Shown: one piece after another, positions 308 to 57,870 of the stretch
Layout of the letters: each line of letters starts with the position of its first letter
Position numbering within the stretch: the stretch's first letter is position 1
Source of the DNA: Opitutus sp. GAS368
GTDB taxonomy: Bacteria; Verrucomicrobiota; Verrucomicrobiia; Opitutales; UBA953
Assembly (NCBI GenBank): GCA_945866215.1
Contig: CAMBGQ010000007.1
Span: 1 to 57,870, forward strand
Reading direction: 5' to 3'
DNA length: 57,870 bases
Translations under genes and position numbers: made by a program
Notes under the pieces: generated by a model
What the model was told of the DNA's origin: nothing
The model's input: only the letters and a program-made list of their open reading frames with translations
Databases searched by the model: none

Positions 308-330
308 GGTAGGCGGCCTCATGGGTGGAA

Positions 331-523
331 GCGGTTGGCGGTTAGAGGTTGGCGGTTAGATGAGATGACAGCGGGGAGAGTTGGATGGAGGATGGGGGAT
401 AAACGATAGGGATAGGTCAAAGGTGGGGAGAGGTTGGGGATGGTGAGGCTATGGGATTGTTCAGGATTTGGGTTTTGGGGTGTGTGGTCTGTTCCTATCC
501 GCTAACCGCCAACCGCTAGCCGC
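331..523. repeat. Inverted heptad repeat element (4 + 4 units)
   Basis: The left arm is four contiguous heptads at 331-358: GCGGTTG, GCGGTTA, GAGGTTG, GCGGTTA. The right arm at 496-523 is four heptads of the opposite orientation: TATCCGC, TAACCGC, CAACCGC, TAGCCGC. The 137-base centre is purine-rich and G-rich, and itself shows a period of about 7 around 381-412 (repeated GGAT/CGAT/GGATA steps). No open frame of note lies inside. It fills the gap between the tmRNA promoter and the divergent AEC transporter. A matching element lies at 55684-55802. Confidence 0.8.
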
Positions 524-579
524 TTTGGTGCAAAATTCCCTTTCCTCGTGAGGTGGTCGTGGGATAGTCGGCTTTGTCC

Positions 580-43616: not shown

Positions 43617-43622
43617 GGGTGA

Positions 43623-43661
43623 GAGTATGGAGTATAGAGTTTGGAGTATAGGACTATATTC
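43623..43661. repeat. Heptad repeat with inverted partner
   Basis: Four contiguous heptads GAGTATG, GAGTATA, GAGTTTG, GAGTATA (43623-43650) are followed by TATATTC (43655-43661), nearly the reverse complement of the unit. The last unit and this partner form a 9-bp stem with one mismatch. It sits in the 84-base gap between tadA and the superoxide dismutase gene. Confidence 0.65.
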
Positions 43662-45683: not shown

Positions 45684-45705
45684 GCCGAGCTTACCGCTCG
45701 TCCCC

Positions 45706-45735
45706 AAGGCCCGCGTCGTGAGATGCGGGCCTTTT
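45706..45735 (+). terminator. Intrinsic terminator of cysK
   Basis: 9-bp perfect stem AAGGCCCGC / GCGGGCCTT with a 10-base loop and a run of T on the 3' side, 22 bases after the stop. Confidence 0.92.
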
Positions 45736-45748
45736 TGTTGGGTATCGG

Positions 45749-45849
45749 GTAGGGCTGGCCATCCTTGGCCGGCCGTGCCGTCGAGCAGGGATGCTCGACC
45801 CTACCAGGCAGCTATATCGTGACGCGGTCCCGACCCTACCTTGAGATGC
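45749..45849. repeat. GTAG-headed REP-like palindrome pair and a conserved tail
   Basis: Starts GTAGGGCTGGCCATCCTTGG, where TGGCCA-type arms flank a short loop. A second hairpin follows, GTCGAGCA / TGCTCGAC with loop GGGA (45780-45799), ending CCCTAC (45799-45804), the reverse complement of the GTAGGG head. So two palindromes face each other, as in REP/BIME pairs. A further CCCTACCTTGAGATGC (45834-45849) is shared with one mismatch at 54108-54123. There is no transposase in the window. Confidence 0.6.
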
Positions 45850-45899
45850 AGGGTTAGGCCTGTGCCTGATGATTTCTCCTTGAGTCCTTCCCCTTAAGG

Positions 45900-45915
45900 G
45901 TGAACATCCGTTCAC
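45900..45915 (+). promoter_or_regulatory. LexA/SOS-type operator of umuDC
   Basis: Perfect palindrome GTGAAC-ATCC-GTTCAC ends 3 bases before the umuD ATG. The GAAC-N4-GTTC core is the type of box used by LexA of Gram-positive and some other groups. It precedes a textbook SOS operon, so LexA repression is a strong inference. It is the only box of this form noticed in an intergenic region here. Confidence 0.7.
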
Positions 45916-45918
45916 TTT

Positions 45919-47659: not shown

Positions 47660-47674
47660 GACTTCAAGATTCGG

Positions 47675-47730
47675 GTGGCAGGTGGCGGCCCCAGGTGGCA
47701 GGTGGCTGGATATATCAACCCGCCACCTGG
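47675..47730. repeat. Heptad repeat with an inverted partner
   Basis: GTGGCAG, GTGGCGG, then a 6-base CCCCAG, then GTGGCAG, GTGGCTG (47675-47708). CCAGGTGGC at 47691-47699 pairs exactly with GCCACCTGG at 47722-47730. A GTAGGGCT head of the REP-like family follows at 47744-47751. It lies between umuC and the ceramidase-like gene. Confidence 0.7.
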
Positions 47731-51816: not shown

Positions 51817-51856
51817 GGGGGCACGTGGGCAAGGTGACACGTGGGCATGGGGCGAT
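51817..51856. repeat. Octad repeat
   Basis: Five contiguous units of eight: GGGGGCAC, GTGGGCAA, GGTGACAC, GTGGGCAT, GGGGCGAT. The second and fourth differ by only one base, so a 16-base superperiod is present. It begins nine bases after the stop of the heme-binding gene. Confidence 0.6.
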
Positions 51857-54041: not shown

Positions 54042-54047
54042 TATTAC

Positions 54048-54123
54048 GAGGGCCCGAGGACCTGAGGACCCGAGGGCGGGAGGGCAGGTGGACTGGAGGG
54101 TAGCCAGCCCTACCTTGTGATGC
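54048..54123. repeat. Octad repeat merging into a GTAG/CCCTAC element
   Basis: Seven contiguous units of eight: GAGGGCCC, GAGGACCT, GAGGACCC, GAGGGCGG, GAGGGCAG, GTGGACTG, GAGGGTAG (54048-54103). The final unit runs into GGTAG ... CTACC (54099-54103 and 54110-54114), an inverted repeat, then CCCTACCTTGTGATGC (54108-54123), which recurs at 45834-45849 with one mismatch. It lies between the convergent ends of the oxidoreductase and sulfatase genes. Confidence 0.7.
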
Positions 54124-54156: not shown

Positions 54157-55626
54157 TTAATTCGTCCCCTTCGCCAGACGCTGGCGGAGTTCGGCGACGA
54201 CGGTCGCATAGGCCGGGTCGGTAGCGAGGTTCTTGAACTCACCCGGGTCGGCGTCGTGGTCAAAAAGCTCCACGCCGAGCCTCCCCTGGTTCCATTCGGT
54301 GTAGCGGAAGCGTTCGGTGCGTACCGAGCGGCCGACCTTACGCTCCGGGTTGGCGGCCTTATTCTTGCCGCCGGCGTTGATGGCGCCGAAGTCGACTTGG
54401 GTGAAGGCGGCGTTGGCCCATGGGCGTTTCGGATCCTCGAGCAGGGCGCGGAGGCTCTTGCCTTCGACGCGCTTGTCGGGCGTCAGGCTGCAGAGGTCGG
54501 CGAGGGTCGGATAGAGGTCGAGTAGTTCGGCGACACGTCGGGTGGGCTGGCCGTTGGCCTTGCTGTCCGGATCACGGATGATGAAGGGCACGCGCGCGGA
54601 ATCCTCGTAGAGCGAGCGCTTCTGCCAGAGACCGTGTTCGCCGAGGTTGTAGCCGTGGTCGCTGATGAAGATGACGATCGTATTCTTATCGAGGCCTTGC
54701 TTCTTCAGCTCCGCGAGCACGAGCCCGAACTGGGCGTCCATGAAGGTCATCGAGGCCAGGTACGCCTGCTTGGCTGTACGCTGCGTGTCTTCAGACATGC
54801 CGTAGTTGGCGACAGCCGTGTTGGAGAGGGCCACGTCTGGCTTGTTCGCGCGGTCAGCGGCGGGGTCGGGGACGAGCGTGACCTTCCCCTTGGGATAGGA
54901 CTCGAAATAGCTCGTCGGAGCCACGTAGGGCGTGTGCGGGCGGAAGAAGCCCACGGCCAGGAAGAACGGCTTGGCGCGCTGCTCCTGCAGGAAGGAAATG
55001 GCCTGCGCGGCAATCTTGCCGTCGGTTTGCTCGGCGTCGGTACCGCCGGCGGCGAGCCAGCTCAGCGTGCCGCCGTAGTTACCCGAACCTACCAGCACTT
55101 TACCGGCCATGCCCTTGGACTTGTCGGCCGACGAACCGGCGCCAACCCCGATGGAGAAGATCTTGTCCTCGTCGTCGCAATCACGGCCGCGGGGATTCCA
55201 GACTTGTTCCCACGACTGCGGGTCGTCGAGACCGTTGGTGCCAATCTCCTTGGGCACGCCGTAGTGGTAGAGCTTGCCGATGCGCGCGACGGCGTAGCCG
55301 TTGTTCTTAAATAGCTGCGGCATCGTCACCATGTCCGGGATCACCTTGCGGAACTCCTTGGCGTTATCGTAGACGCCGGTCGTGTCAGGGCGGAGGCCTG
55401 TGAGGAAGGATGTGCGACTCGGGTTGCAGAGGGCGTATTGGCAATAGGCGCGGTCGAAGCGGACGCCGGAGCGGGCGAGAGCATCGATGTTCGGCGTCAG
55501 TGCCTCGCCGCCGTAGGTGCCCATGCGGGCGCCGCAATCGTCTGAGACGAGCAGCAGGACGTTCTTACGGGGCGCCGCAAAAGCGGACAGGCAGGCGAGG
55601 AGGACGAGGGCGGTGGGGAGGCGCAT
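54157..55626 (-). CDS. Secreted sulfatase (iduronate-2-sulfatase-like)
   Basis: 489 residues with a signal peptide (about 1-18). LLLVSDDCGARMGTYGG contains the calcium-binding Asp pair, and ALCNPSRTSFLTG carries the C-x-P-S-R motif whose Cys67 becomes formylglycine. RPDTTGVYD is a hallmark of the iduronate-2-sulfatase branch, and FISDHGYNLGEHGLWQKRSLYEDSARVPFI is the second metal region. The substrate would be a sulfated sugar in a polysaccharide. It needs a formylglycine-generating enzyme or anaerobic maturase, not seen here. It is divergent from no gene; octad repeats begin directly before its start. Confidence 0.92.
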   Translation of the reverse strand: MRLPTALVLLACLSAFAAPRKNVLLLVSDDCGARMGTYGGEALTPNIDALARSGVRFDRAYCQYALCNPSRTSFLTGLRPDTTGVYDNAKEFRKVIPDMVTMPQLFKNNGYAVARIGKLYHYGVPKEIGTNGLDDPQSWEQVWNPRGRDCDDEDKIFSIGVGAGSSADKSKGMAGKVLVGSGNYGGTLSWLAAGGTDAEQTDGKIAAQAISFLQEQRAKPFFLAVGFFRPHTPYVAPTSYFESYPKGKVTLVPDPAADRANKPDVALSNTAVANYGMSEDTQRTAKQAYLASMTFMDAQFGLVLAELKKQGLDKNTIVIFISDHGYNLGEHGLWQKRSLYEDSARVPFIIRDPDSKANGQPTRRVAELLDLYPTLADLCSLTPDKRVEGKSLRALLEDPKRPWANAAFTQVDFGAINAGGKNKAANPERKVGRSVRTERFRYTEWNQGRLGVELFDHDADPGEFKNLATDPAYATVVAELRQRLAKGTN

Positions 55627-55670: not shown

Positions 55671-55683
55671 GCCATAGGTTATG

Positions 55684-55802
55684 GCGGTTAGCGGTTTGCG
55701 GATGGCGGTTGGGGCCTTTGACGGGTGAAAATAGACCAGGCGACAAGGGTTGATCCCTGCCGCCTGATGCTTCCTAACCGCAAACCGCTAGCCGCTAACC
55801 GC
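55684..55802. repeat. Inverted heptad repeat element (4 + 4 units), second copy
   Basis: The left arm is GCGGTTA, GCGGTTT, GCGGATG, GCGGTTG (55684-55711). The right arm is TAACCGC, AAACCGC, TAGCCGC, TAACCGC (55775-55802), all four being inverted heptads. The 63-base centre includes an imperfect stem AGGCG ... CGCCT (around 55738-55764). The unit and 4+4 layout match 331-523, although the centres are unrelated. It fills the gap between the sulfatase start and the end of cysNC. Confidence 0.8.
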
Positions 55803-55818
55803 GACTACCTTTCCATCA

Positions 55819-57711
55819 TTACACTTCCCAGTCGTCGCCCTTGCCCTGGAGGACCTTGTCGACGGCCGCTAGGACGAGGTCGACGGCGGTTTCCTGGGAG
55901 GTCTGGTCAGTCTTGATGTGAATCTCCGGCGCTTCGGGCACTTCGTAGGGTGACGAGATACCGGTAAATTCGGCGATCTCGCCGCGACGGGCCTTGGCGT
56001 AGAGTCCCTTGACGTCGCGGGATTCGCAGACGGATAGCGGGGCGTCCACGAAGACCTCGAGGAACGTATGGTTCGCGAGGGCGGCGCGGGCCTTGGCGCG
56101 ATCGGTGGCTAACGGAGCGATGAGGGTGACCAGTGTGATGTGGCCTGTGCTGGAGAAGAGGCCGGCGACGGCGGCGGCGCGGCGCACGCTTTCGGAGCGG
56201 TCGGCGGCGGAGAAGCCGAGGTCGCGGTTGAGCGAGACGCGGAGATCGTCGCCGTCGACGCGAATGACGTTGCGGCCGGCGTCGAAGAGACGGCGTTCGA
56301 CCGCTTCGGCGATGGTCGACTTACCCGAGCCCGAGAGGCCCGTGAACCAAATGACTGCGGGCGGATGGCCGGCGCGGGCGCCGCGCTCGGACGCGGTGAC
56401 CTTGCCGGAAGGCGCTTCGGATTTCGCGACCGTGTCGAGGATGATGCCGCCGCCATGGATGCGGCCGCCTTCTTCGAGGGCGAAGCGACCCGTGATCGGG
56501 CACTCGGCGTGCAGGTCATAGGCGATATTGCGGGTGGCGCGGACGATTACCTCGCAAATCGAGTCACGCGGTACGCTATCGGCTTCCTTGGATTCGAGGC
56601 TCGAGGCGTCGGTCACCTTGATGATCTTCGCGATGACCGCGTCGACGTTCTGGGTGAGCAGGCGGAGGCGGTAGGTCTTGTTGGGGACGAGCGGATCCTT
56701 GCCCAGCCAGAAGATGCGGGCGCGGAACTCGCGGCCCACGCGGGGTTGGTTGGCTGGGTGGGAGGCGACTTGACCGCGCTCCACGAAGATCTGCTCAGAC
56801 AGCGTCACGCTGGCGGAGCCGCCGGTCCCGACGACCGTGCGGGATGCGGGCCCTGGCCAGTCTTCGAACGTGCGGACCGTGCTACGACGCCCGCCGGGCT
56901 GGAAGATGAGCTCGTCGCCGGGGCGGATGGCGCCGGCTTCGACGCGGCCGGCGATGATGCGGCGATGGTCGAAACGATAGATGTCAGAGACCGGTAAGCG
57001 CAGGGGCAGGCCAGTGAGGTCGTCCTCGTGGGCAAAACCATCGAGGGCTTCGGTGACCGTCGGGCCCTTCCACCAGGGCATCAGGGCGGCGCGCTGGACG
57101 ACGTTGGCGCCGTGTTTGGCGGCGATCGGGATGAAGTGGACGGCGTTGAGTCCGAGGGTCTTCAGGAAAACCGAATATTCGTCCACGATCTTGTGGTAGG
57201 TGGCCTCCGAGTGGTCGACGAGGTCCATCTTGTTCACCAGCACGACGAGTTGCTTCACGCCCAGAAGGGAGAGTAGGAACGCGTGGCGGCGGGACTGGTC
57301 CATCACGCCTTCCTTGGCGTCGATCAGGAGGAGGGCGGCGGAGGCGCTGGCGGCTCCGGTGACCATGTTCTTAAGGAACTCCTTGTGGCCCGGGGCGTCG
57401 ATGATCGCGTAGGCGCGCTGCTTCGTGCGGAAGAAGATGCGCGTGGTATCGATGGTGATGTTCTGTTCCTGCTCTTCGATCAGGGCGTCGAGAAGGAAGG
57501 CGTATTCGAACTCCATGCCTTCGATGGCACAGTTCTTACGAACCTGCTCGATCTTGCCGTTAGGCAGGGAGTCAGTGTCGTTGAGGAGACGACCGACGAA
57601 GGTGGACTTGCCGTGGTCGACGTGGCCGACGACGACGACGTGCATCTTGCGATGGTCTTCGACGGAGGGAAGGGAGGTGCTCACAGGTTGGGAAAGGGAT
57701 TGGGTGTTCAT
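55819..57711 (-). CDS. cysNC: CysNC fusion: sulfate adenylyltransferase GTPase subunit + adenylylsulfate kinase
   Basis: About 630 residues. The N-terminal EF-Tu-like GTPase has [27 protein letters not shown] and [13 protein letters not shown], with VNKMDLVD for guanine binding. After about residue 440 comes an APS kinase: [42 protein letters not shown], and [27 protein letters not shown]. Together with CysD it turns sulfate into APS, and the C-terminal half makes PAPS. ATG 57711 is used; the GTG at 57729 overlapping the cysD stop (GTGA) is an alternative start. Confidence 0.95.
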
Positions 57712-57725
57712 TATTATCGGGCGGC

Positions 57726-57870
57726 TCACATGAAGCCCTTGGCGCGGAGTTCCTGCATCGAGTTACGACCGACGTGGTCCTGGGCGCGACCGGCGCGTTC
57801 GCTGGTCTTGGTCAGCTTCAGTTCCTCGATGACTTCGTCGATGTTGCTGGCCGGGCTGTCGACCGGGTGC
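57726..57870 (-). CDS. cysD: Sulfate adenylyltransferase subunit 2, C-terminal part only
   Basis: About 48 codons of the C-terminus are visible, the rest lying past the window edge. It reads [30 protein letters not shown] ... [12 protein letters not shown]-stop, matching the conserved CysD tail (E. coli ends with SMEKKKREGYF in the same place). It directly precedes cysNC with a possible GTGA overlap, the usual cysDN order. Confidence 0.88.

Follow-up and report, generated by a model that had tools for sequence, protein, structure and literature searches.

A dispersed, inverted heptad-array element at gene ends of an Opitutae genus, with a terminator-like hairpin in its centre at the cysN/C gap

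Intergenic mosaics of the REP/BIME type are inverted repeats dispersed at gene ends, where they likely form RNA hairpins, and in the foldback transposons of eukaryotes a variable centre lies between inverted ends that consist of short tandem repeats. Intergenic heptamer arrays have been described from Xanthomonas and from cyanobacteria, in both without an assigned function (Rehm et al. 2015, PMC4692102). The GGGAATC arrays of Xanthomonas, the nearest published case to the element studied here, are 89-93% intergenic and mostly of four units (up to 26), with convergent inverted pairs numbering 70 in one species and 75 in another and few arrays between divergent genes; they are mostly kept between the same genes while varying in length and sequence, and no function is given for them (PMC4692102). 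The TAACTGA repeats of Beggiatoaceae are dispersed intergenic heptamers in two to six copies; they mostly form direct arrays immediately before start codons, and one case is inverted (PMC4679880). For Opitut- or Verrucomicrobi- taxa, a search of one open-access literature library found no description of such arrays.

The window analyzed here, a stretch of 57,870 nucleotides, is contig C7 of its own draft genome (G000; 1.9 Mb, 85.5% complete). Near its right end, between a sulfatase gene and a CysN/CysC-like gene and directly past the stop codon of the latter, lies an element built of heptads of the form GCGG-N3, and a second element of the same family (family A) lies near the left end. The features are as follows:

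54157..55626, minus strand: sulfatase gene (PF00884, PF16347), start facing the left arm
55676..55682, plus strand: left outer border AGGTTAT, which borders the left arm
55683..55710, plus strand: left arm, four heptads GGCGGTT AGCGGTT TGCGGAT GGCGGTT
55711..55775, unstranded: centre, 65 bases, the part best conserved among 10 orthologues
55737..55766, minus strand: terminator-like hairpin CAGGCGGCAGGG..CCCTTGTCGCCTG, then GTCTATTTT, reading out of cysN/C
55776..55803, minus strand: right arm, four inverted heptads; reverse-complemented, CGCGGTT AGCGGCT AGCGGTT TGCGGTT
55804..55810, minus strand: right outer border ACTACCT (reverse complement AGGTAGT)
55819..57729, minus strand: CysN/CysC-like gene (PF00009, PF01583), stop 8 bases from the right border
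330..357, plus strand: left arm of the other family-A element, one unit being AGAGGTT
497..524, minus strand: right arm of the other family-A element

The first-pass annotation had described four heptads, a spacer and four inverted heptads, and this architecture is present at 55683-55803 far above chance: the 18-base pattern GCGGNTNGCGGNTNGCGG, with one mismatch allowed, has 8 matches in the window, whereas 100 dinucleotide shuffles gave 0.23 on average and 2 at most. Its coordinates were right to within a base or two, and the centre it gave as 63 bases measures 65 by our definition of the arms. Neither of the outcomes that it had named as refuting occurred: ordinary unique sequence kept unchanged in other strains, or a heptad period not above chance after GC correction. 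RNA folding of 55676-55810 gave z scores of -7.75 (plus strand) and -8.05 (minus strand), and the centre, at the 3' end of a gene, has the GC-rich stem and subsequent T-rich run of an intrinsic terminator. A coding explanation was ruled out, the arms sitting between two genes, and so was a known RNA family or tRNA; the sole Rfam match is the tmRNA at 1-228, a gene cut by the contig end that adjoins the element at 330-524.

The same annotation called the locus a second copy of one with exactly the same architecture. The partner at 330-524 is real, with a deviating left unit (AGAGGTT) and a centre of 139 bases; "second copy" was too modest, as GCGGNTNGCGGNTNGCGG has 43 exact matches in the own genome (1 for the reversed-pattern control). 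The design thus recurs genome-wide, which bears out the suggestion that it does not stem from a single duplication. A stricter heptad pattern matched 21 of 25 genomes from the genus, the own one counted, and none of 13 genomes from other families of the order. The compact inverted pair, searched with one gapped pattern across 177 genomes of the order, had matches in 3, all among the 7 sampled from the genus and none among the other 170, with no control match. Heptad unit and borders are also present, among the matches listed, in uncultured Opitutae / Opitutia records. The element is real and recurrent in the genus.

In family A, AAGGTGNN is followed by two to four RGCGGTT units and then by RGG and an A-rich stretch, often with an inverted copy opposite; the commonest letters are AAGGTG outside the arms and (G/A)GG, then A-rich sequence, inside. 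We counted 92 arms at loci of nine genus genomes, mostly picked for heptads or synteny (44 arms from the own genome, none from G047): 47 have four units, 29 three, 16 two and none more than four, counts that include orthologous copies and are thus not independent. These arms form 24 inverted pairs, and 44 arms have no partner within 450 bases; the G-rich-arm-first order of the pairs is not a finding, because pairs were defined that way. One Opitutae contig outside the nine-genome set (L067) has a five-unit arm. With distances counted from a point 7 bases outward of the first unit, the facing gene border is a stop codon for 47 arms (median distance 8 bases) and a start codon for 41 (50 bases), and some arms contain the stop codon, e.g., AAGGTGTAAGCGG of G016. 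Flanking genes are oriented +- in 20, ++/-- in 31 and -+ in 10 of the 61 distinct gaps with family-A arms, and in 20, 89 and 43, respectively, of 152 sampled gaps. At L226 1318-1530 (G000 C66), one inverted arm follows three G-rich arms that all point the same way, two of them with a GGGAACACAGAGAG linker; the G011 counterpart of this locus includes a run of N.

Like the Xanthomonas arrays, family A is a seven-base G-rich tandem unit, intergenic and present in many copies, with four units the commonest arm size (47/92) and with inverted pairs (24). In contrast to GGGAATC, the unit GCGGTTR has no GGG tract, its GCGG core having two G in a row, so it lacks the G-quadruplex feature; the arms stop at four units in our 92 whereas Xanthomonas arrays reach 26; and the genus of family A has several array families at one gap and a terminator-like core at the cysN/C site. 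With the TAACTGA repeats, family A has dispersed intergenic heptamers in common, although it is often inverted and those arrays are mostly direct. The likeness to REP/BIME lies in dispersal, inversion, position at gene ends and a likely RNA hairpin, but the family-A arms are short-period tandem arrays.

The whole element was found in 10 of the 55 genus genomes searched for orthologues, and in their alignment the centre is the fixed part, while in the arms single bases drift and entire heptads drop out. In the centre stem all 12 pairs are formed in 10/10 genomes, 11 of them unchanged throughout, and a T-rich run follows the stem; the hairpin predicted at the cysN/C gap is thus well supported by conservation. 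In the arms the GCGG/CCGC cores are nearly always pairable, with few exceptions, and the 3-base linkers vary. Exact heptads are lost in G004 (left arm 3), G014 (3 and 3) and G016 (left arm about 1). The first-pass annotation, which was right on architecture and recurrence, was wrong on the conserved part at this site: its "arms conserved, centres vary" is reversed among the 10 orthologues and is correct in so far as centres differ between loci of the own genome. Shuffling of units between loci, which it had raised, is not needed, since orthologous arms stay in register, and point changes together with losses of entire heptads account for their differences. Covariation gave no support for the arm stem: the covariation term was +1.65, and both partners had changed in 2 of the 38 predicted pairs. 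Arms matched their own partners no better than permuted ones (p 0.48 for 9 own-genome pairs, 0.16 for 24 pairs). The common descent of arms that had been read from a shared AGCGGCT AGCGGTT order therefore finds no support, and co-maintenance of arm pairs is rejected on permutation and covariation. Matched arm changes seen by eye in the C16 5769 element of G016 and G011 failed to hold across all pairs.

In the sister genomes the same gap is filled in different ways. Among 30 genomes, the cysN/C gap holds family A in 10, Q (GTGGGCAA-type octads) in 8, S (GGGCTA-type hexads) in 5, B (AGGCCCAG-type octads) in 2 and other content in 5. The labels Q, S and B, like K, M and N below, were assigned by eye, and three Q genomes (G001, G010, G042) were labelled on the left octad array and palindromes. 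These 6- or 8-base arrays are mostly inverted pairs around a different hairpin. In four of the "other" genomes (G059, G009, G039, G017) the gene that follows appears to differ, and the fifth, G058, has no array in the 260 bases viewed; all five were set aside in the count of A against not-A on the gene tree. The gap labels require at least 13 changes on this tree, against a mean of 17.0 for shuffled labels, which were as low in 1 of 200 cases; the label thus tracks the tree beyond shuffled labels, so that part of the distribution is plain descent. A fully supported sister pair nonetheless carries unlike labels (G014 A, G054 S). Since the A copies have one centre in common, the pattern fits recombination that swaps entire gap alleles as well as repeated replacement. 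In five chosen cysN/C gaps the folding z was -6.7 and -11.1 for A, -8.3 for Q, -4.2 for S and -4.2 for B; across the 95 gaps of at least 100 bases in the spaced sample, the median was -1.59 and 27% lay below -3.

Turnover of a like kind was seen, among the matches listed, in three further gaps of C16 (5 to 8 genomes each), which hold family A, octads, GAGTATG heptads, GGGCTA hexads and REP-like GGTAGGG palindromes. The sample of 152 gaps, from 458 kb made up of the window and 20 spaced stretches from G016 and G011, contains 9, 19 and 5 arrays of period 6, 7 and 8, against 0.6, 0.6 and 0.0 expected. By a threshold of our own, used with no null, an inverted match lies within the same gap for 19 of the 38 arrays. 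Under looser settings a 6- to 8-base array occupies 24 of the 152 gaps; arrays are common, yet far from universal, and, because of this fraction, the inverted structure is not generally required. Control stretches at the level of the order yielded 5 gaps in 117 kb, with the gene caller trained on the window. Some gaps hold concentric nests of up to four array families, as at L225 8985-9292 (G000 C46), where AGCGGTT, GGAAACC/GGAGACC, GGTCTC and GGTTCG were read by eye as four concentric inverted families. The window itself has further intergenic short-period G-rich arrays at 43622-43651, 47674-47706, 51818-51850 and 54047-54100 (units GAGTATG, GGTGGCA, GTGGGCA octads and CGAGGACC octads) and, at 45684-45918, REP-like palindromes with ends GGTAGGG...CCCTACC, which recur in gaps of related genomes. 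Two dispersed intergenic elements of ~242 and ~118 bases (L221 6993-7234 and L223 11863-11981) match many times across the 8 related genomes that were searched.

The GCGGTTR unit also occurs outside the Opitutae, in Povalibacter, Steroidobacter and Peristeroidobacter, which form one family. We counted 118+118 matches in Povalibacter (controls 6 and 13), 84+89 in one Steroidobacter draft (controls 0 and 0), 22+45 in Peristeroidobacter (controls 1 and 4) and 1+1 in Steroidobacter gossypii. At the three loci viewed, one from each genus (L057, L068, L101), two arrays are inverted 4+4 and one 5+5, with borders that differ from those of the Opitutae; at L057 the arms almost touch a stop codon and an ATG. 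Povalibacter stretches, 300 kb in all, contain 6 arms and 1 pair. The arrays of the two groups may have a common origin or may have converged. Among the matches listed, the heptad unit is also present in two contigs of a Polynucleobacter draft (L062, L122), of which one has the Opitutae border; the contigs are possibly misbinned.

We put at about even the chance that family A is a dispersed, genus-wide intergenic hairpin element at gene ends that acts like REP/BIME or as a reinforced two-way transcript end. At cysN/C the two arms frame the terminator-like hairpin and, if transcribed through, would pair and so lengthen this gene-end hairpin to about 120 nt; we infer that the arms may in this way help the centre hairpin. 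The most likely role would be that of a two-way transcript end, insulating neighbours and protecting 3' ends as gene-end hairpins of the REP/BIME type do. Where an array is present, its inverted structure seems to be kept while the letters are free, so that species would differ in the array family that fills the gap. The arms probably pair in the cell and may influence termination or stability, and the copies have presumably spread. A simple terminator is argued against by divergent gene pairs, which flank 10 of the 61 gaps with arms, and by compact centres: of the 13 folded, those of L272 and L273 (one gap in two genomes) are C-rich and near-unstructured at -2 to -8 kcal/mol and have no stem, and the centres of L224 and of the window element at 330-524 fold weakly on one strand.

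A selfish, foldback-like mobile element, mobilized by a transposase in trans and merely tolerated at gene ends as landing places, would account for the many copies, whose arms share their outer and their inner borders, and for the nesting, written A[K[M[N]]] at G000 C46. It also agrees with a G049 gap of 44 bases without family A whose G000 counterpart has 213 bases and four arms, and with the presence of other multi-copy intergenic elements (~118 and ~242 bases) in related genomes. Family A has the inverted ends made of short tandem repeats that mark foldback elements and MITEs; the eukaryotic foldback transposons differ from this bacterial element of about 120 bases, in which target duplication is inconsistent. 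Among 11 testable elements, those without GGT on both borders being set aside, the duplication score was 1.0 against 0.49 when shuffled (p 0.05), driven by 3 of the 11 and with no common length. Among the listed gaps that lack family A, most contain a different array or a palindrome, so no clean empty site with matching ends was seen there, and the centres are locus-specific. A Y1 (RAYT-type) transposase, the only transposase family looked for, was not found in the 85.5% complete own genome, a difference from REP/BIME as well, and is present in 16 of 31 genus genomes searched. We consider the mobile element possible but unlikely.

Two further explanations address the unit itself. Replication slippage with hairpin-templated copying could produce such arrays at gene ends as functionless by-products, in keeping with the exact heptad losses in G004, G014 and G016, the excess of periods 6, 7 and 8 alike and the many unit families, but it leaves unexplained both the identical unit and borders at dozens of loci and the lack of arms above four units in the genus sample (L067, with five, lies outside it); we regard it as quite improbable. 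Similarly improbable, in our estimate, is an array of binding sites for a putative DNA- or RNA-binding protein that recognizes GCGG once per seven bases, with the inverted order setting spacing and polarity. The kept GCGG core with drifting linkers, the limit of four units in 92 arms and the inverted 4+4 order of GCGGTTR with another border at Povalibacter and Steroidobacter loci speak for such a protein, and the arrays of quite different unit and period that sister genomes hold in one gap speak against it.

What is new here is the turnover of array families at one gap, their concentric nesting and the terminator-like core. A further reading, which we regard as doubtful though possible, is that at gene-end slots carrying an array the design of the gap rather than its sequence would be inherited: unrelated inverted families would replace one another and build concentric nests, some process would make and spread the arrays, and Povalibacter and Steroidobacter would have a parallel system built of the same unit. 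A rule that covers every slot is excluded, because only 24 of the 152 sampled gaps contain an array. The cysN/C gap can be viewed in 30 genomes of the genus, where four kinds of array occur in it, including one around a conserved hairpin, and this makes it testable whether an inverted frame at a gene end, and the way it is spelled, matters.
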